22,445 nucleotides of DNA from a virus, in the IMG/VR virus record IMGVR_UViG_3300032240_001373, positions 1 to 22,445 of that record, one strand, 5' to 3'. Positions within the stretch are counted from its first letter, which is position 1, and every line of letters starts with the position of its first letter. The notes beneath the pieces are model-generated. The model was not told the origin of the DNA. It did no database searches and saw only the letters and a program-made list of their open reading frames with translations. The position numbers were made by a program, and so were the translations under genes. Shown here piece after piece: positions 3,092-19,199 of the stretch.

Positions 3092-3121
3092 TTGACAGTC
3101 AAATAATCTATGCTTGAGAAT
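3092..3121 (+). promoter_or_regulatory. Rightward sigma70-like promoter
   Basis: A perfect -35 TTGACA (3092-3097) is followed, 18 bases on, by a weaker -10 GAGAAT (3116-3121). The A/T-rich block just upstream (AAAAAATATTTTCATAAAA) could be an UP element. It precedes the 23-gene rightward operon. The weak -10 leaves room for an activator. Confidence 0.45.
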
Positions 3122-3124
3122 GTA

Positions 3125-3144
3125 ATCTCATCACTAGATGAGAT
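3125..3144 (+). promoter_or_regulatory. Perfect inverted repeat, operator or leader hairpin
   Basis: ATCTCATC-ACTA-GATGAGAT: an 8-base perfect stem with a 4-base spacer, immediately downstream of the -10. As DNA it would be a typical repressor operator; as RNA it would be a 5' hairpin about 22 bases before the CTAGGAG ribosome site of the first gene. Confidence 0.65.
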
Positions 3145-3174
3145 GCAAACGAACCACCTACTAGGAGAAATTGA

Positions 3175-3378
3175 ATGGACGAACAAGCGATGATTCAAGC
3201 AATACGCAAACACGCTGAAGCCAATTACAACAAGGGCTGGGACTATGTTGTGGAATGCTGGGCAGATGGGGATATCTTGGAAAAATTGTCTGATGCTGAG
3301 GGCAATCTAAAACAGGCTATTAAGGATATTCAGTCAATCATTAATATTCAAGCTGAAGTGAGATCCAGCTGCTGGTAA
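3175..3378 (+). CDS. Small conserved phage protein, first gene of rightward operon
   Basis: 67 residues. The segment HAEANYNKGWDYVVECW (about residues 12-28) matches a pattern I associate with small proteins widespread in aquatic and proteobacterial phages; no function is known. It is preceded by ACTAGGAGAAATTGA, a good ribosome site, and by the palindromic leader. No cysteine pairs or membrane segments. As the promoter-proximal gene it may act early, but this is inference. Confidence 0.8.
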   Translation: MDEQAMIQAIRKHAEANYNKGWDYVVECWADGDILEKLSDAEGNLKQAIKDIQSIINIQAEVRSSCW

Positions 3379-3383
3379 TACCT

Positions 3384-3444
3384 ACAAGCCCATGCCAGTC
3401 GTGGGTTTGTGGATTATTACCTGATAATCATTAACTGCTAGGAG
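3384..3444 (+). promoter_or_regulatory. Intergenic RNA module A: two stem-loops plus GCTAGGAG
   Basis: Stem-loop 1 pairs 3384-3394 with 3400-3410 (11 pairs, two of them wobble). Stem-loop 2 is GATTATT-ACCT-GATAATC (3412-3429), followed by ATTAAC and CTGCTAGGAG. The same layout recurs at two other gaps in this operon with covarying stems. Confidence 0.7.
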
Positions 3445-3449
3445 GTCAT

Positions 3450-3629
3450 ATGATCATTGAAGTTGAAGTCAAAAATGTATACGGCAAGGATATCTTCTAT
3501 CCCTTGTGCAATCAGGCTATCCTGTTTGCCCGTCTCGCCAGCACTAAGACTCTTACCCTTGATGCCCTGAACACTATCAAGGCGCTGGGCTATGAGGTCG
3601 CAGTTCAACAAAAACACTACGCACTATAA
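3450..3629 (+). CDS. Small conserved phage protein
   Basis: 59 residues, MIIEVEVKNVYGKDIFYP at the N-terminus, then a central TKTLTLDALNTIKALGYEV. This strand-helix pattern recurs in many phage small proteins near replication genes; I know of no assigned function. Start supported by CTGCTAGGAGG five bases before the ATG. It is the first gene after RNA module A. Confidence 0.78.
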   Translation: MIIEVEVKNVYGKDIFYPLCNQAILFARLASTKTLTLDALNTIKALGYEVAVQQKHYAL

Positions 3630-3639
3630 GGGGATAAGC

Positions 3640-3783
3640 ATGATTCTGCCTACACTTGTATCACCGATGGATATCCATCAATGCCTTGAGTATTGTGGCA
3701 TTCGCTACACTTTTTGGAGACTGACTGAGTGCGATGGCTGCTCTGTTAGTCGGGCTATTTACCTGATTCTTTTATCTATTTAA
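3640..3783 (+). CDS. Small unknown protein
   Basis: 47 residues, starting MILPTLVSPMDIHQCLEYCG. Preceded by AAGGGGATAAGC, a good ribosome site that is nearly identical to the one before the gene at 4193. Five cysteines in 47 residues is high, but they are not in a recognisable zinc-finger spacing. A longer frame reaching back to 3592 is rejected because it would lack a ribosome site and overlap the preceding gene. No function recognised. Confidence 0.65.
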   Translation: MILPTLVSPMDIHQCLEYCGIRYTFWRLTECDGCSVSRAIYLILLSI

Positions 3784-3793
3784 GGAGCTGATT

Positions 3794-4189
3794 ATGTGGA
3801 CTTGTATCAATAAAACCGAAGCCCAAAAATGCTTTTCTCACTTCATATTCCATGAAGACGCAATGAGTCGTATTGCCATTGCAGACCATTCCCTATCCAG
3901 CTTCGCTGATCCTTCCAGCACCGATGACGGGCTGCTGCTTTGGACGGGTGAAGTCGGGACTCTCTCATCCAGCAGAGATCATTGCTACATCATGGTTCGG
4001 GTAGCCAAGGCAGACGGGGATTTATCCTTTGTCGGGGTTAGCCTTCTGACTGCGCTGCGCATCGAGCAGATGATGTGCAAACAAGTCATCCCCACCAATC
4101 CTGAAATTGAGGATTATTGCAATGCCGATAGCTATTCCCCTAACCAGCGGGAATACTGCCCTGAGCTGGTCATCTCACCAAGGGGATAA
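3794..4189 (+). CDS. Unknown phage protein
   Basis: 131 residues with no domain I can name. Ribosome site AAGGAGCTGATT precedes the ATG. The middle (GLLLWTGEVGTLSS, then HCYIMVRVAKADGDLSFVGV) reads as alternating beta strands, suggesting a small beta-rich globular protein. It lies ten bases downstream of the preceding gene and three bases upstream of the next, so it is part of the same transcript. Confidence 0.78.
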   Translation: MWTCINKTEAQKCFSHFIFHEDAMSRIAIADHSLSSFADPSSTDDGLLLWTGEVGTLSSSRDHCYIMVRVAKADGDLSFVGVSLLTALRIEQMMCKQVIPTNPEIEDYCNADSYSPNQREYCPELVISPRG

Positions 4190-4192
4190 GTC

Positions 4193-4417
4193 ATGCAAAA
4201 TCATCACTTTTACGGCTCCAATATCGGGGAATGGAAGACCAGCGATAACCTTGTGGAGGTCATCGACTGGTTCCAAAAGCAAACCCTCCCATACAGTCTA
4301 TGGATGGTTCCGCTGGCAGCTGATGCCCACTATCAGATTAGGCGCTACGCACCTGACGTGGACGGCAGCATTCTTTTGGGGACATTCCATAAGAAAAAGG
4401 TATTTCAACCTGAGTGA
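4193..4417 (+). CDS. Small conserved phage protein
   Basis: 74 residues, MQNHHFYGSNIGEWKTS at the start, and an LPYSLWMVPLAADAHYQIR core. The pattern resembles small phage proteins of unknown role. Ribosome site AAGGGGATAAGTC. It is followed directly by RNA module B, whose first stem-loop begins four bases after the stop codon. Confidence 0.75.
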   Translation: MQNHHFYGSNIGEWKTSDNLVEVIDWFQKQTLPYSLWMVPLAADAHYQIRRYAPDVDGSILLGTFHKKKVFQPE

Positions 4418-4420
4418 TTC

Positions 4421-4480
4421 CTCTAAGCCCCCACAGGGGGTTTAGGGATTGTCATTCGACAGTCATTAACCGCTAGGAGA
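4421..4480 (+). promoter_or_regulatory. Intergenic RNA module B: two stem-loops plus GCTAGGAG
   Basis: Stem-loop 1 pairs 4421-4432 with 4436-4447 around loop ACA (up to 12 pairs). Stem-loop 2 is GATTGTC-ATTC-GACAGTC (4447-4464), then ATTAAC and CGCTAGGAGA. No T-run follows stem-loop 1, so it is not an ordinary intrinsic terminator. Confidence 0.72.
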
Positions 4481-4485
4481 AAAAG

Positions 4486-4839
4486 ATGCAAACTCAAACC
4501 ATCGATTTATCGCAGTTCTTCGGGACATCCCAGTATTGGAGGACACAACCGATGTTCGCACCGAAGCTGGTGCATACAGACGGGGTGCAAGCCTTTGCCG
4601 ACCAAGCTGGCGCTTACTGGTTTTTAGACATTATCGCCACCGAAGTCTACGAGCTGCACAAGAGCGAACCCTTTATCGGTCTGACACTATCAGTCGATGA
4701 CGGCAAAGCCCGTATCGTTGCCAATGACGGGGACGATAAGCTGGTCTTCGATAAGAAGATTGACTACACCGATTGCCCAGCTGGGAAGTATCACTTCTTC
4801 CTTTGTGACAATGTATTCATGCTGACATCGGAGTATTGA
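4486..4839 (+). CDS. DUF6876-like phage protein
   Basis: 117 residues. The N-terminal IDLSQFFGTSQYWR, the TDGVQAFADQAGAYWFLDIIA segment (around 32-52, shown here in part), and the C-terminal ending MLTSEY match the pattern I recall for DUF6876, a family of phage and mobile-element proteins of unknown function. Start set by GCTAGGAGAAAAAG upstream. Seen: the motif pattern. Inferred: family membership, from memory without a search. No enzymatic residues are evident. Confidence 0.75.
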   Translation: MQTQTIDLSQFFGTSQYWRTQPMFAPKLVHTDGVQAFADQAGAYWFLDIIATEVYELHKSEPFIGLTLSVDDGKARIVANDGDDKLVFDKKIDYTDCPAGKYHFFLCDNVFMLTSEY

Positions 4840-4841
4840 TC

Positions 4842-5144
4842 ATGGCAGACTTGATTGACACTATGACAGTCAAGTCTCCCCTCAAGCTGGAGGGCAGCTG
4901 GGGGGAGCGAGACTTAGGGGAGCATGAGTCTACTTTGGAGCTTTACTACCACAAGGACGCTACGGGCTTCATAGAATGGGATATACCCAGCTTAGATAGG
5001 TTTGAATACATCGGGCTATGGTTTGATATCGATAAGGACGGCAAGCGCTCTTTGAGCGAATATGACGGGGTTATGAGCTTGAATGACCATGCCATTGCCT
5101 TGCTGCGCAAAAACAATGTTCATGTAGGGGAGGATTTCGAATAA
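4842..5144 (+). CDS. Unknown acidic phage protein
   Basis: 100 residues from the ATG at 4842, two bases after the preceding stop. The computed frame also allows a TTG six bases earlier, which is less likely. Rich in acidic and aromatic residues (ESTLELYYHKDATGFIEWDI, then YIGLWFDIDKDGK), probably a small beta-sandwich-like fold. The DIDKDGKRSL segment superficially resembles an EF-hand loop but lacks the second half. Function unknown. Confidence 0.75.
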   Translation: MADLIDTMTVKSPLKLEGSWGERDLGEHESTLELYYHKDATGFIEWDIPSLDRFEYIGLWFDIDKDGKRSLSEYDGVMSLNDHAIALLRKNNVHVGEDFE

Positions 5145-5329
5145 TGATGACGGCATTGATTGTGACAACGGATGCAAAGCGCATCGGGCAGCATCAATGC
5201 CAGTCTTGGACGGAGTGCCAAGAATGGTCTGAGATGTTCATTGGATATAACGGCCTGAAGCGCTTACGCAGCCACAAAGCTAACGGCCAATTAATTACAT
5301 GGGTGGAACCAAATGAAACTAAGTCTTGA
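5144..5329 (+). CDS. Small unknown protein
   Basis: 61 residues, start ATG overlapping the preceding stop as TAATG; the next codon is also ATG, so the exact start is uncertain by one residue. Contains a Trp/Cys-rich stretch HQCQSWTECQEWSEMF and a basic middle (LKRLRSHKANG). Overlaps the next gene by 17 bases. No family recognised. Confidence 0.65.
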   Translation: MMTALIVTTDAKRIGQHQCQSWTECQEWSEMFIGYNGLKRLRSHKANGQLITWVEPNETKS

Positions 5330-5525
5330 AATAAATATGGATAACGATGCCTTTGATTCTGAAACAGTCAACGGCAGTCAATGGGCAGCCGAGACGATCA
5401 GCTGCTTGCAAAAGGTCATAGCGCAGCTGGAACAGGAGCGGCAATGGGGGAAGATTCACGACACCAACGGCAATACAGTTGGTTGCTGGGATATCGATTA
5501 TCAAGACGAAGAGGAGATGATATGA
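5313..5525 (+). CDS. Small DTNGNxVG-family phage protein, copy 1
   Basis: 70 residues: a beta strand with MDNDAF, a helix around AETISCLQKVIAQLEQE, and a C-terminal HDTNGNTVGCWDI hairpin. The same order (strand, TDNAA/NDAF, helix, DTNGNxVG hairpin) occurs in the gene at 5987, so the two are paralogues. The family is common among phage small proteins; function unknown. The start lies inside the previous gene. Confidence 0.78.
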   Translation: MKLSLEINMDNDAFDSETVNGSQWAAETISCLQKVIAQLEQERQWGKIHDTNGNTVGCWDIDYQDEEEMI

Positions 5526-5656
5526 GCAGATGGGATTATTTTTATCGGTCTATGACGGAGGTCTGGAATGACTTGCTGGGGTTTGGCATAGTCATTGCTG
5601 GGTTTTATGTGTTGTGGGTGGCAGCTTCGGCAATTGTTAAATGGGGGACAAAATAA
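5522..5656 (+). CDS. Small single-pass membrane protein
   Basis: 44 residues, starting MSRWDYFYRSMTEVW, with one hydrophobic helix LLGFGIVIAGFYVLWVAASA (about 18-37) and a Lys-containing C-terminus. ATGA overlap with the preceding stop sets the start. A holin role is possible for any small phage membrane protein, but it is not beside a lysozyme or spanin gene, so host-membrane interaction during early infection is equally plausible. Confidence 0.72.
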   Translation: MSRWDYFYRSMTEVWNDLLGFGIVIAGFYVLWVAASAIVKWGTK

Positions 5657-5826
5657 TGTTTTGTTTACATGACGGAGAATCAAGCTGGGACGAGTATGAT
5701 GCGCAGGGCATTTACTTGTGTAGGGTCTGCGATAAATGCGCAGATGAAAAACTAAGCCAGTATCGACCAGAGATCCTTACGGGCTATTCACAATCTGATG
5801 TAGACGAACCAATTGAGGAGCAATAA
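5656..5826 (+). CDS. Small CxxC phage protein
   Basis: 56 residues. CLHDGE at the start, then YLCRVCDKCADEKLSQYRP (about 20-38), then EILTGYSQSDVDEP. The CRVCDKC cysteines with the N-terminal Cys-His could bind zinc. The EKLSQYRPEIL...GY..SDVDE pattern is one I recognise from small hypothetical proteins of many phages; function unknown. TAATG overlap with the membrane-protein gene. Confidence 0.78.
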   Translation: MFCLHDGESSWDEYDAQGIYLCRVCDKCADEKLSQYRPEILTGYSQSDVDEPIEEQ

Positions 5827-5828
5827 TT

Positions 5829-5990
5829 ATGGATAAGTATTATCAATATTTGGAAGAGCTGCGTGATTCAGGCGAGATCAATATGTGGGGCGCTGGAGCG
5901 CATCTCGAAGCAGAGTTTGACCTGAGCCGCAAAGAAGCAAAGGATGTTCTTTTAACTTGGATTAGATCATTTAATAAGGGGGATTTATGA
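5829..5990 (+). CDS. Small conserved phage protein
   Basis: 53 residues: MDKYYQYLEELRDSGEINMW, then LEAEFDLSRKEAKDVLLTWI. All-helical, with the layout of a small three-helix bundle. The LRDSG.INMxGA...L...F.L.RKEA..VL..W pattern is widespread in phage accessory regions, without known function. It is below the usual length cut-off but is supported by tight packing: two bases after the preceding stop and an ATGA overlap with the next gene. Confidence 0.78.
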   Translation: MDKYYQYLEELRDSGEINMWGAGAHLEAEFDLSRKEAKDVLLTWIRSFNKGDL

Positions 5991-6181
5991 GTAAATTTAT
6001 CGTAGAAATACGCACCGATAATGCTGCGTATGAAGAAGATTTTTATGACGAAATTATTGCTAATTTGAAGAACATTTGCCAACAGGTGGATAGCTCTCAA
6101 TTAGAGGGAATTGTCAAAGACACCAACGGAAACAAGGTTGGTAAATTTTATTGTTTAACTGATGGTGAGGGAGGGAATTAA
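5987..6181 (+). CDS. Small DTNGNxVG-family phage protein, copy 2
   Basis: 64 residues: MSKFIVEIRTDNAAYEED, a helix around IIANLKNICQQVD, and the KDTNGNKVGKFY hairpin near the C-terminus. Paralogue of the 5313 gene, three genes upstream. Ribosome site AAGGGGGATTT lies inside the preceding gene. Function unknown. Confidence 0.8.
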   Translation: MSKFIVEIRTDNAAYEEDFYDEIIANLKNICQQVDSSQLEGIVKDTNGNKVGKFYCLTDGEGGN

Positions 6182-6182
6182 G

Positions 6183-6551
6183 ATGGGATGGACAGGAATG
6201 CAGCCCCCGTATCATGGGGACAAAAAGCGCTGGTTGGAAGAGCAGTTTAATCAGAACGGGGAGGTTGGCACTAACCCGTCATTTAAATTGACGGATATCA
6301 GCATAAGGGGACGGGAAGCCTACGGCATTCTCAATGTTGTCAAAGCAGACGGAACCAAGACTGGTTGTGGCATGGTGATGCTGCTGGAGTGCAGCCAGCG
6401 TGAATGGGCTATTAAGGACATGAGTGAAGATATGCTGCCCTACTATTACAACGCACCAAAGAAATTGATTCATAAGCTGGATGAGCTTTACCCAGCGACT
6501 AATGACAATCAACGGGAATGGCGCAATAGATGCCTTGCTAAAGTGCAGTAA
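6183..6551 (+). CDS. DUF6927-like phage protein
   Basis: 122 residues beginning MGWTGMQPPYHGDKKRWLEE. The MGWT start, the YGILNVVKADG...GMVMLLE strands and the closing KDMSEDMLPYYYNAPKKLI with the final WRNRC match the pattern I recall for DUF6927, seen in phages and plasmids, function unknown. The start at 6183 is set by GGAGGGAATTAAG; a longer frame upstream overlaps the previous gene. Stem-loop 1 of RNA module C begins two bases after its stop. Confidence 0.78.
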   Translation: MGWTGMQPPYHGDKKRWLEEQFNQNGEVGTNPSFKLTDISIRGREAYGILNVVKADGTKTGCGMVMLLECSQREWAIKDMSEDMLPYYYNAPKKLIHKLDELYPATNDNQREWRNRCLAKVQ

Positions 6552-6552
6552 T

Positions 6553-6613
6553 CCTGATGCCCTTCGGGGCATTGGGATTGCCATTTGGTAATCATTAACT
6601 TAACTGCTAGGAG
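6553..6613 (+). promoter_or_regulatory. Intergenic RNA module C: two stem-loops plus GCTAGGAG
   Basis: Stem-loop 1 pairs 6553-6562 with 6567-6576 around a TTCG tetraloop (10 pairs). Stem-loop 2 is GATTGCC-ATTT-GGTAATC (6576-6593). Then comes ATTAACTTAAC, in which TTAAC is duplicated relative to modules A and B, and CTGCTAGGAGA. Confidence 0.72.
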
Positions 6614-6619
6614 ATTGTT

Positions 6620-7060
6620 ATGGGTTTAGATATGTATTTAACGGCAAAGCAATACTTATGGGCGCACAGACCTGAAGAAGAGCATTTGCGCAAAGATGTG
6701 GCAGCGGTGCTGGGTGTCAAAGACTACGATGCCAAAGAGGTATCTTTTGAGGTAATGTATTGGCGCAAAGCCAATGCCATACACCAATGGTTTGTCGACC
6801 ATGTTCAAGACGGGAGTGACGATTGCAAAGAATACTGGATGGATTCTGCCAAGCTGGACGAGCTGGTGGAGCTATGTAATCTTGCGCTGCTTAACAGAGA
6901 TGTTAATTTATTAGAGCCAGCTGCTGGATTCTTTTTTGGTTCCACAGAAAAGGATGAATACTATTGGAAAGAGATTGAAAGGACTAGGGACGAATTGTCG
7001 AAGATCCTGACGAACCCAGCTGCGGTTAACTGGGAATTTTATTATCAATCGAGCTGGTGA
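6620..7060 (+). CDS. Conserved phage protein, MGLDMYL family
   Basis: 146 residues. It starts MGLDMYLTAKQYLW and contains YWRKANAIHQWFV at 47-59, both hallmarks of a small-protein family found in many tailed phages, for which I know no function. The rest is helical, with conserved-looking Trp and acidic residues. It follows RNA module C with the ribosome site CTGCTAGGAGATTGTT. Cytoplasmic: no signal or membrane segment. Confidence 0.85.
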   Translation: MGLDMYLTAKQYLWAHRPEEEHLRKDVAAVLGVKDYDAKEVSFEVMYWRKANAIHQWFVDHVQDGSDDCKEYWMDSAKLDELVELCNLALLNRDVNLLEPAAGFFFGSTEKDEYYWKEIERTRDELSKILTNPAAVNWEFYYQSSW

Positions 7061-7064
7061 GATC

Positions 7065-7244
7065 ATGCCTAAATACAATGTTTTAATCACGATTAACCAG
7101 TATGTGGAAATAAGCGCAGTAACTGCCAAAGATGCAGAGATGGCGGCATACAGGGGTTATAAGCGTGGGGAGATTGCAATAGATGAATCCCCTATTTTTG
7201 TTTGTGAAGAATGCGACCTTGTTGAGGAGGATGAAAATGCCTAA
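7065..7244 (+). CDS. DpnD/PcfM-like small protein, copy 1 of 3
   Basis: 59 residues: MPKYNVLITINQYVEISAVT, then KDAEMAAYRGYKRGEIAIDE and a C-terminal CEEC. The short antiparallel strands followed by an Ala-rich helix with an A-x-x-x-A-x-x-A rhythm resemble the DpnD/PcfM-like domain. That function is unknown in phages. It is the first of three adjacent genes that all begin MPKY. Its stop codon lies inside the ATGCCTAA that starts the next copy. Confidence 0.75.
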   Translation: MPKYNVLITINQYVEISAVTAKDAEMAAYRGYKRGEIAIDESPIFVCEECDLVEEDENA

Positions 7245-7410
7245 ATATGAATTTTTTGTATCAGTCAAATACACCAAAGCAATTGAGATTGAAGCAGAAG
7301 ACAGAGATGCGGCCTACGATCTTGCTTGCGAGACAAAAGATGCCGATATCATCAATGACGGAGATCACGAATTTAATTGTGAATATAACGGGGAGATTGC
7401 AGATGCCTAA
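7237..7410 (+). CDS. DpnD/PcfM-like small protein, copy 2 of 3
   Basis: 57 residues: MPKYEFFVSVKYTKAIEIEA, then EDRDAAYDLACETKDADI. Same strand-strand-helix layout as its neighbours. The ATG at 7237 follows GAGGAGG by six bases, inside the end of copy 1. A longer frame from 7183 is rejected. It overlaps copy 3 by eight bases through the same ATGCCTAA junction. Confidence 0.78.
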   Translation: MPKYEFFVSVKYTKAIEIEAEDRDAAYDLACETKDADIINDGDHEFNCEYNGEIADA

Positions 7411-7588
7411 ATACATTATCAGAGCAGAAACTAATGTGATGTATGAAAAGGTTATCGAAGCTGCCAGCATGGAAGATGCGTGGGAAAAGGGTAAGCAGCT
7501 GCCTGAATGCGACTTTCATTGCGTAGGGGAATTTGACCATGTGGTCTACGATGTTGAACAAACTGATGACGATGAGGAGATTGATTGA
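7403..7588 (+). CDS. DpnD/PcfM-like small protein, copy 3 of 3
   Basis: 61 residues: MPKYIIRAETNVMYEKVIEA, then SMEDAWEKGKQLPECDFHCV and an acidic tail EQTDDDEEID. Same layout as the two preceding genes, though the helix has diverged. The ATG is embedded in the final codons of copy 2; a longer out-of-place frame from 7247 is rejected. Ribosome site GGGGAGATTGCAG. Confidence 0.78.
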   Translation: MPKYIIRAETNVMYEKVIEAASMEDAWEKGKQLPECDFHCVGEFDHVVYDVEQTDDDEEID

Positions 7589-7812
7589 TGTATGAGGTGC
7601 AGCACTACACCATATGCGATGGTTGGATTAATTGTTGGACGGATACTGACGAAGCTGGGGTATCCATTCCTACAATTTTTAAGACTTATGCCGAAGCCCT
7701 AGATGCCCTGAATGAATTATTTGAGGATGATCTTGAAGAATACAATCGGGGCAATATTCATTCAATGTTTGAAATAGACGAATTTAGAATAATGGAGATT
7801 GACAGATGGTAG
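7588..7812 (+). CDS. Small conserved phage protein
   Basis: 74 residues: MYEVQHYTICDGWINCWTDT, then TIFKTYAEALDALNELFEDD, then FEIDEFRIMEI. Two N-terminal strands, a helix and a C-terminal strand. This MYEVQ.YT.CDGWIN..-type protein is common in phage small-gene clusters; function unknown. The ATG at 7588 (TGATG overlap, GGAG eight bases before) is preferred to a TTG three bases earlier. Confidence 0.78.
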   Translation: MYEVQHYTICDGWINCWTDTDEAGVSIPTIFKTYAEALDALNELFEDDLEEYNRGNIHSMFEIDEFRIMEIDRW

Positions 7813-7991
7813 ATAAAACAATAAACGATTACAAGATTGACTTAATACTTTTAAATGAATTAAAAGGATGGATTAGGATGGAACATTACCAGCTGCTAGA
7901 TTTGCTTTTAGAGCAGCGTAGATTTTTTTTGGAGACTGAAGTAGATCAAGGAAATGAAGAATACCTTGATGAAATATTGGAGGAATTATGA
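7806..7991 (+). CDS. Small helical protein, unknown
   Basis: 61 residues, helical and leucine-rich (KIDLILLNELKGWIRMEHYQ, then LLDLLLEQRRFFLETEV). Leucine/isoleucine spacing suggests a helical hairpin. ATG lies in the last codons of the preceding gene and the stop overlaps the next ATG as ATGA. No family recognised. Confidence 0.65.
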   Translation: MVDKTINDYKIDLILLNELKGWIRMEHYQLLDLLLEQRRFFLETEVDQGNEEYLDEILEEL

Positions 7992-8158
7992 ACAAATATA
8001 TTGAAGAACTATTGACAGAAATGATATTTGACTTTAACGATCTAGCAATGGGCTACACCTATAAGGACGTTGGATACGATACCAAAAAAGAGTTTTTTGA
8101 AGAAATGAGCAAAAAAGCAAATGAGCTTTACTCTAGATTATCTAAGGAGGTAGTATGA
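7988..8158 (+). CDS. Small unknown protein
   Basis: 56 residues: MNKYIEELLTEMIFDFNDLA, then MGYTYKDVGYDTKKEFFEEM and SKKANELYSRLSKEVV. Mainly helical and charged. Supported by ATGA overlaps at both ends and by GGAGGAATT before the start. No family recognised. Confidence 0.65.
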   Translation: MNKYIEELLTEMIFDFNDLAMGYTYKDVGYDTKKEFFEEMSKKANELYSRLSKEVV

Positions 8159-8322
8159 ATCAGGCAGATAAAGATGCAGCAAAGTGGATGGAAGCCAATG
8201 CCAAATGGCAAAGGGATAAAATGATTTATGCCAAAGAATCAGGCAAGCTATACCATATTGATGAAACTGGCTATGTAATTATTGAAAAGGAAAAAGATGA
8301 ATCTGCGCCTAGCAAAGGGTAA
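8155..8322 (+). CDS. Small unknown protein
   Basis: 55 residues: MNQADKDAAKWMEANAKWQR, then DKMIYAKESGKLYHIDETGY and a charged tail. Ribosome site AAGGAGGTAGT, the strongest in this stretch. It overlaps the sigma-like gene by 26 bases. Function not recognised. Confidence 0.65.
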   Translation: MNQADKDAAKWMEANAKWQRDKMIYAKESGKLYHIDETGYVIIEKEKDESAPSKG

Positions 8323-8572
8323 AGTGCCAGTCTATGTAGGGGGCGATGCCCCTTACCAGCTGGTTCCATTCCCTACCAAACACCAGTTTGATGAGATGTT
8401 CAAGCGCAATAATAAGATTTTGCGGGAGAAATACTGGAATGTATTAAAGATGCGGTCTAAGGGTCATACGCTACAATCTATAGGTAGCGAATACACTTTA
8501 ACTCGTGAAAGGATCAGGCAGATTGAAGCGAGGTTTTTAAGGAAAGTAGCATCTTCTTTAAATCCTGACTAG
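8297..8572 (+). CDS. Sigma70 region-4-like helix-turn-helix protein
   Basis: 91 residues from the ATG at 8297 (AAAAGG six bases before; a TTG 15 bases upstream is rejected). The C-terminal half (about 45-84) matches sigma70 region 4.2: a helix with KMRSKGHTLQSIG, then the nearly canonical TRERIRQIEARFLRK at 69-83, where host sigma factors contact the -35 element. There is no region 2, so it cannot melt promoters as a full sigma factor. It may be a DNA-binding regulator or bind host RNA polymerase in place of, or together with, host sigma. Last gene of the rightward operon; its 3' end overlaps the convergent primase gene by 59 bases. Confidence 0.82.
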   Translation: MNLRLAKGKVPVYVGGDAPYQLVPFPTKHQFDEMFKRNNKILREKYWNVLKMRSKGHTLQSIGSEYTLTRERIRQIEARFLRKVASSLNPD

Positions 8573-11115: not shown

Positions 11116-11158
11116 TTATTTCTCCTAGCAGGTGAAGTTTTATTTTATCTTTTTTGAT

Positions 11159-11587: not shown

Positions 11588-11809
11588 TAATAATATATAT
11601 TTAATATATACCCGATACCTTTTGGTGGACGCACTCCGCCCTAGAAGTGCGCCTTTAACTATGATACCTTTCGGAGCCACAGCACTCGCCAGTCGTTCAT
11701 GTCGTAGGCACTAGCTTCGCCACCTACTTTGCGCTGTTACAGACATTTCCCCAGTAACGCTTGTATTTATATCGCTGGTGTTTCTCTGCCGTCCAATATA
11801 AACCGCATA

Positions 11810-11859
11810 GAGAAGATAATTAGATTAACGAAATTAATCGTTAACAACGTTATCTTCTC
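11810..11859 (-). repeat. Bipartite inverted repeat (hairpin)
   Basis: Outer arms GAGAAGATAA (11810-11819) and TTATCTTCTC (11850-11859) pair perfectly over 10 bases. A second perfect 6-base stem TTAACG/CGTTAA (11825-11830 and 11839-11844) lies inside, separated by 5-base internal loops on each side. Strong in either strand's RNA. Confidence 0.75.
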
Positions 11860-12003
11860 CTAGCCTGTTCAGAATACACCAAGTAATTTTTTTTTGCAAC
11901 TCCAAAAAGGAAGAACCCCAGTTTTTTAGTCTGGGGTTCTTGGATCAAGGGGATCGATCCGTGGGCTTGCTTTGCACAAGTCTCTGCTAGGAGATGATAA
12001 CGT
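11847..12003. repeat. 18-base inverted repeat pair carrying GCTAGGAG
   Basis: Left arm 11847-11864 read on the minus strand is GCTAGGAGAAGATAACGT; right arm 11986-12003 on the plus strand is GCTAGGAGATGATAACGT. They match at 17 of 18 positions in inverted orientation, 121 bases apart, flanking the terminator. Confidence 0.8.
11904..11941 (-). terminator. Leftward intrinsic terminator
   Basis: Perfect 11-base stem AAGAACCCCAG/CTGGGGTTCTT (11911-11921 with 11931-11941) around a 9-base loop. Read leftward it is followed by CCTTTTT. No T-run follows on the plus strand, so it acts leftward. Confidence 0.75.
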
Positions 12004-12024
12004 GCGTGTCAGAGGGGGACTGAC
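11904..12024 (-). ncRNA. Predicted small RNA with anti-ribosome-site loop
   Basis: A leftward transcript of about 121 nt is predicted from the promoter at 12031-12060 to the terminator at 11911-11941. Near its 5' end CTCTG (12014-12010) pairs with CAGAG (11986-11982), exposing a 23-base loop with ATCTCCTAG, the complement of the ribosome-binding motif CTAGGAG that is repeated before many genes here. Promoter, hairpin loop and terminator are seen in sequence; the RNA itself is inference. Confidence 0.4.
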
Positions 12025-12030
12025 ATACTA

Positions 12031-12060
12031 AATATACTACATGAATCCAATTTGTGTCAA
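12031..12060 (-). promoter_or_regulatory. Leftward sigma70 promoter, TTGACA-18-TATATT
   Basis: Reading leftward: consensus -35 TTGACA at 12060-12055, an 18-base spacer, and -10 TATATT at 12036-12031 (5 of 6). This is the best sigma70 match in the window. It begins in the last bases of the DUF1364-like gene and fires into the non-coding region. Confidence 0.65.
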
Positions 12061-18969: not shown

Positions 18970-18977
18970 GTCTTCTC

Positions 18978-19199
18978 CTAGCTAAATAAAAAAACGGCAA
19001 AAACTACAAATAAACCAACTAACGTACTTAGTGCTACAGCTGCATCGTGCAAATGTTTTTGTCTTATGTACTCTGGTGTTGCCAGCAGAGCTTCTTGCAA
19101 AAACAACATATCTGGATCATCAATTGGCATTGTGATACCATTCTCACGATACCTACATCCAATTTGGATACCAGTTTTAGTTGTATAAGGTGTATGCAT
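18978..19199 (-). CDS. Small tail-anchored membrane protein
   Basis: 73 residues from the ATG at 19199, which follows CTGCTAGGACAACAA; a longer frame upstream is rejected. Soluble N-terminal part (TKTGIQIGCRYRENG, PIDDPDMLFLQEALLATPEY, IRQKHLHDAAVAL), then one C-terminal transmembrane helix LSTLVGLFVVFAVFLF. The EALLATPEYIRQKHLHDAAVA pattern is familiar from phage small proteins; function unknown. First gene of the long leftward operon. Confidence 0.78.
   Translation of the reverse strand: MHTPYTTKTGIQIGCRYRENGITMPIDDPDMLFLQEALLATPEYIRQKHLHDAAVALSTLVGLFVVFAVFLFS

Follow-up and report, generated by a model that had tools for sequence, protein, structure and literature searches.

Double-hairpin RNA modules, type I hammerhead ribozymes, and promoter leaders occupy the same slot before the start boxes of phage genes

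The window, a 22.4-kb IMG/VR phage fragment, contains a rightward operon of 23 small, tightly packed genes. The sole three long gaps in this operon (71, 68, and 68 nt) are all occupied by a double-hairpin module; the 19 other gaps are 11 nt or less, or the genes overlap. A DNA search of the deposited phage collection gave no match to the operon. The terminase encoded in the window shares 56% identity with its counterpart in Pelagibacter phage HTVC027P, and a Betaproteobacteria-1 sRNA lies on the opposite strand (Table 1); on these grounds, a beta-proteobacterial host is plausible. L129 has the same sRNA (98.2 bits), as do L134 and L148 judging by motif. The C-terminal part of a 96 amino acid protein matches sigma-factor PHROG 351 (E 1e-6), and the protein may be a sigma-like regulator of the phage. 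A second conserved noncoding element, located between operons, consists of a terminator-like hairpin, GGGCTTGC(G/T)TTGCACAAG, and CTGCTAGGAG, in that order in eight of eight aligned sequences.

Each of the three gaps follows a single plan: two adjoining hairpins, a start box, and then the ATG of the next gene. An earlier note on this DNA had described the double-hairpin layout and had tied the modules to gene starts; the layout is present in all three gaps, and a start box and ATG do follow each module. When folded in isolation, all three modules form both hairpins (z -4.4, -6.6, and -3.8); when folded with their flanks, the minimum-energy folds of modules 1 and 3 lack stem 2.

Table 1. Positions of the features discussed, in window coordinates
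Feature	Position	Strand	Remarks
Operon	3175-8572	+	23 genes
Promoter-like leader	3092-3174	+	form of the slot before the first operon gene (start 3175); fold z -2.8
Leader TTGACA	3092-3097	+	part of promoter-like leader
Leader 5' hairpin, ATCTCATC..GATGAGAT	3125-3144	+	part of promoter-like leader
Leader CTAGGAG	3161-3167	+	part of promoter-like leader
Module 1	3381-3429	+	model R1: 75.2 bits over 3378-3444
Module 1 stem-loop 1	3381-3411	+	arms 3383-3394 / 3400-3411, CC before
Module 1 stem-loop 2	3412-3429	+	GATTATT / GATAATC
Start box ATTAACTGCTAGGAG	3430-3444	+	precedes gene 3450-3629
Module 2	4421-4464	+	model R1: 78.9 bits over 4417-4479
Module 2 stem-loop 1	4421-4446	+	
Module 2 stem-loop 2	4447-4464	+	GATTGTC / GACAGTC
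Start box ATTAACCGCTAGGAG	4465-4479	+	precedes gene 4486-4839
Module 3	6553-6593	+	model R1: 64.3 bits over 6551-6613
Module 3 stem-loop 1	6553-6575	+	arms 6554-6562 / 6567-6575, C before
Module 3 stem-loop 2	6576-6593	+	GATTGCC / GGTAATC
Start box ATTAACTTAACTGCTAGGAG	6594-6613	+	5-nt tandem duplication, ATTAACTTAACTGC; precedes gene 6620-7060
96 amino acid protein	8282-8572	+	
CTAGGAG, opposite strand	11122-11128	-	
Betaproteobacteria-1 sRNA (RF02932)	11684-11803	-	92.5 bits, Rfam
CTAGGAG, opposite strand	11857-11863	-	
Second conserved noncoding element	11905-12040	+	between operons
CTAGGAG, opposite strand	18975-18981	-	

The first stems had been described as unrelated in sequence yet all able to pair. 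They do pair, but they are not unrelated, as one consensus, CCU...GCCC...GGG...GG, is common to the copies and can be aligned. Loops 1 and 2 differ among copies in both sequence and length, and the arms also vary in length. No conserved unpaired core was seen inside or between the stems of the aligned copies, nor any extra conserved helix or pseudoknot, the search for these giving only isolated columns outside the stems. Two other pairings were considered and rejected. In many copies an extended stem 1 (AUCC with GGAU) could alternate with stem 2, but L096 and L145 have lost the AU, so this switch is not conserved. The minimum-energy fold of module 2 pairs the 5' UCCU with the AGGA of the box, but L123 and L130 have CUU for CCU, and stem 1 explains the CCU better. 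No Rfam 15 covariance model matched the modules (the whole window was searched to E 5, and modules 1 and 2 alone to E 1), and no hammerhead core (CUGANGA ... GAAA ... NUH, with three helices) was found in the window, even when the core was relaxed. The modules are also not plain terminators, as had been stated: an intrinsic terminator combines a G+C-rich hairpin with a T-run, and the lack of a T-run rules this out. A terminator scan flagged only stem 1 of module 2, the tail of which (ATTGTCATTC) has no T-run, and matches in the region were no more numerous than in shuffles.

Homologues of the modules, whose absence or loss of pairing had been proposed as grounds for refutation, were found in ~50 IMG/VR contigs, some of which represent near-identical phages; their stems stay paired, and the claim survived. 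This total combines an exact pattern, a second pattern, and a later scan. The exact pattern, TCATTAACNGCTAGGAG, was present in 40 contigs, with the hairpins in all except L091. A covariance model (R1) made from 20 distinct copies gave one to four copies per record, some of which had been overlooked by the patterns; since a box by itself scores 20-24 bits, matches at or below ~26 bits were left out of the module count. Twelve exact box-pattern matches in 84,980 bacterial genomes were rejected, those scoring at all with R1 reaching only 20-24 box-driven bits.

Covariation had been claimed from the three window copies, which alone are weak evidence; 30 distinct copies make it strong. In stem 2, pairs 5 and 6 do vary as the earlier note described. 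Over the 30 copies (alignment A3), 98.7% of stem cells are paired, both sides have changed at 11 of 18 pairs and, within stem 2, at six of seven, and the covariation score is 0.520, versus 0.226 when shuffled and at most 0.112 with slid partners; the copies are related (effective number ~7) and A3 was fitted to the R1 structure, which limits any single count. An independent MAFFT alignment (A2) agrees, with 98.0% paired and a score of 0.440 versus 0.205. On the + strand of the 30 copies, G-U cells number 103 and A-C cells two, or 33 to two when pairs in which G-U is commonest are omitted. A DNA dyad would give both alike; therefore, the + strand RNA is the conserved object, and its structure is kept by selection. 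The count largely refutes a DNA-level palindrome at which a DNA-binding protein would recognize an operator or an internal promoter. Dyad symmetry would fit such a site, and Cluster K mycobacteriophages have similar repeats, ESAS, that are regarded as sites in DNA (PMC3203893), but loop and arm lengths are variable, there is no promoter match over the modules, and this reading is extremely unlikely.

ATTAAC had been taken as part of the module. That assignment failed, for the conserved sequence is (W)AACTGCTAGGAG, and it also follows hammerheads and promoter leaders; this start box, common to all three, is an element separate from the module. It lies 5-8 nt from the start codon in nearly all cases. 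The later survey of AACTGCTAGGAG boxes selected on the box itself, so the first set of sequences is the proper measure of how well the box is conserved. CTAGGAG also occurs at three opposite-strand sites, two of which precede genes; neither a module nor a hammerhead was found upstream of these three sites in the window.

Hammerhead ribozymes are frequent in phage transcripts. Weak R1 matches in relatives led to a hammerhead-like element in the position of the module, and three interchangeable forms were recognized 5' of the start box: the module, a promoter-like leader with a hairpin, and a type I hammerhead. The hammerhead layout is CTGANGA, helix, GAAA, helix, and (A/G)TC or a similar triplet, all enclosed by an outer helix of 4-8 bp, and the end of the element, the predicted cut site, is ~11 nt upstream of GCTAGGAG. 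A start box followed in 20 of the 20 distinct examples from the first hammerhead screen; the same screen yielded one match elsewhere, where 1.0 was expected by chance from shuffled sequence. The AACTGCTAGGAG box survey added further modules and hammerheads. These elements, called from sequence and helices, have the core and three helices of type I hammerhead ribozymes and are assigned to that class, although one example scored 18.7 and 18.5 bits against Rfam, below the gathering cut-offs. One lenient hammerhead call, in L142, was false, and on inspection the element was a double-hairpin module. Among deposited phages, those whose terminase or helicase is related (L172 and L191-L193, partial records) had no hammerhead and at most one box. 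The leader before the first gene of the operon is the best promoter-like match in the region (10/12), the number of matches being the same as in shuffles; its layout is repeated in L041, L053, and L178. Elements before MRVVEE genes in L203, L238, L245, and L269 are hammerhead-like with altered cores (CCGATGA, TTGATAA) but retained helices, and may be ribozymes that cut slowly or not at all and are kept for structural reasons. The degenerate cores in L203, L238, and L245 hint that structure may matter as much as cleavage in this slot.

When the genes behind the boxes were grouped by sequence into families, swaps in the slot were found in at least five. Of the contexts of the gene 4486 family, 13 have a module before the gene, six a hammerhead, and one a leader; for the gene 6620 family, the counts are 10 with a module and three with a hammerhead. 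The KIKAYDAV/KYEVKVY genes follow modules and hammerheads four times each, and the form also changes before MANWKQ and MIKNVIAKCIDR genes. Hammerhead-led genes in L205, L207, L217, L275, L278, and L292 share 54-60% identity with gene 4486, and others in L125, L273, and L278 share 47-53% with gene 6620; together, orthologues of these two window genes lie behind hammerheads in nine distinct contexts. Proteins of L124 (module) and of L205 and L207 (hammerheads) are identical over their first 24 residues and match window gene 4486 equally (60%). Among the box elements, the inner sites of the window operon are modules with no hammerheads, only hammerheads were found in L254 and L273, and many phages carry both forms. 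Judged by these families, sharing of the slot shows interchangeability in evolution; that the forms act by the same mechanism does not follow.

The swaps bear on several explanations. A repeat kept as a recombination linker, allowing exchange of gene cassettes at matching joints, would account for one type of module or hammerhead preceding different genes and for one gene having different elements. In addition, L095 (2638-2780, + strand) has, behind a hammerhead, a tandem repeat of the box together with the start of an MQPSLL gene, which looks as if a cassette had been duplicated. A linker, however, needs identity and not pairing, whereas the arms change yet stay paired; linkage may be a by-product of the module rather than its reason, and we consider this explanation unlikely. 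Alternation with hammerheads in one slot before the same genes could also mark the module as a new class of self-cleaving RNA, cutting as a hammerhead does; other ribozyme classes have been found by such association, the RAGATH approach. Catalysis is argued against because the module has neither a conserved unpaired core nor a further helix or pseudoknot, and with no match to an Rfam ribozyme, a new class is very unlikely. Two adjoining hairpins in a phage transcript also constitute put of phage HK022, which functions in antitermination, and the modules likewise place two adjoining hairpins within a phage operon. Compared by description alone, they differ from put in position, copy number, and linkage to a start box; they stand directly before gene starts, several per operon, and are replaced by hammerheads, whose cleavage would part the RNA from the polymerase on which an antitermination RNA acts. 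Such a role is highly improbable.

The earlier note had suggested processing, stability, or translation control, which was the right area but missed both the swaps with hammerheads and leaders and the separate AACTGCTAGGAG box. Its further suggestion that a protein binds the element has no direct support and is weakened by the hammerhead swaps. The corresponding explanation is a translational operator, on which a phage or host RNA-binding protein would repress or activate the gene, the module genes forming one regulon. Several copies per genome and a conserved structure adjoining the ribosome site are what an operator would predict, but the same genes stand behind hammerheads in other phages, and beyond the box these have no sequence in common with the module. 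Moreover, both loops differ among copies in sequence and in length, unlike those of most known operators. An operator is therefore rather unlikely.

We consider it probable that the module is a functional substitute for a self-cleaving ribozyme, serving as an intercistronic insulator or processing element. It would be a folded RNA in a polycistronic phage mRNA, between a stop codon and the AACTGCTAGGAG box of the next gene, its two adjoining hairpins folding during RNA synthesis. By taking over the job of the ribozyme, it would provide the downstream gene with a 5' context independent of upstream sequence, and would define where the upstream message stops, either by acting passively, as insulator and stability barrier, or by being cut by a host endoribonuclease. 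All three forms share a fixed context immediately 5' of the box, supplied by a transcription start, a self-cleavage site, or a rigid double hairpin, and the simplest account is that the module replaces the ribozyme as an insulator or processing site. Predicted accessibility of the start box gives this insulator reading modest support. GCTAGGAG is predicted to be unpaired at 0.50 with the module, versus 0.40 when the module is shuffled (p 1e-5) and 0.40 when upstream sequence replaces it (p 0.008), but plain deletion of the module gives 0.48, hardly below 0.50. Genes behind start boxes on the opposite strand of the window lack such an element, which also counts against this reading.

Clustered type I hammerheads are known in phages and prophages and were proposed to cut long transcripts into shorter mRNAs (Perreault 2011, PMC3088659). 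In relatives of the window phage, the module shares their slot, start box, and genes, but it has no hammerhead core and consists of two hairpins instead of a three-way junction. In Cluster K mycobacteriophages, the 13-bp SAS, GGGATAGGAGCCC, lies 3-7 bp before the start codon, and about half of the sites have upstream 17-bp inverted repeats (ESAS), for which RNA pairing was unsupported according to the authors (PMC3203893). Both systems have an AGGAG box a few nucleotides before the ATG, an inverted repeat upstream, large gaps, and non-structural genes; here, however, the box is AACTGCTAGGAG rather than GGGATAGGAGCCC, its spacing is 5-8 nt, and in place of one 17-bp repeat pair there are two hairpins that covary as RNA. 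RiboJ-type insulators are engineered self-cleaving RNAs placed 5' of a ribosome site for context-independent expression (PMC6206723); they resemble the hammerhead form of the slot, whereas the module has no ribozyme. No description of the module, or of its alternation with hammerheads, was found in the literature searched, which included few subscription journals.

Phage by phage, the same gene and box follow a ribozyme, a coreless double hairpin, or a promoter leader, which amounts to a natural controlled swap. Comparison of these forms may reveal whether self-cleavage, definition of a 5' end, or plain insulation is selected. If insulation is the answer, the double hairpin would be a ribozyme-free insulator, and these phages would have arrived by evolution at standardized expression cassettes that closely resemble the RiboJ parts of synthetic biology.
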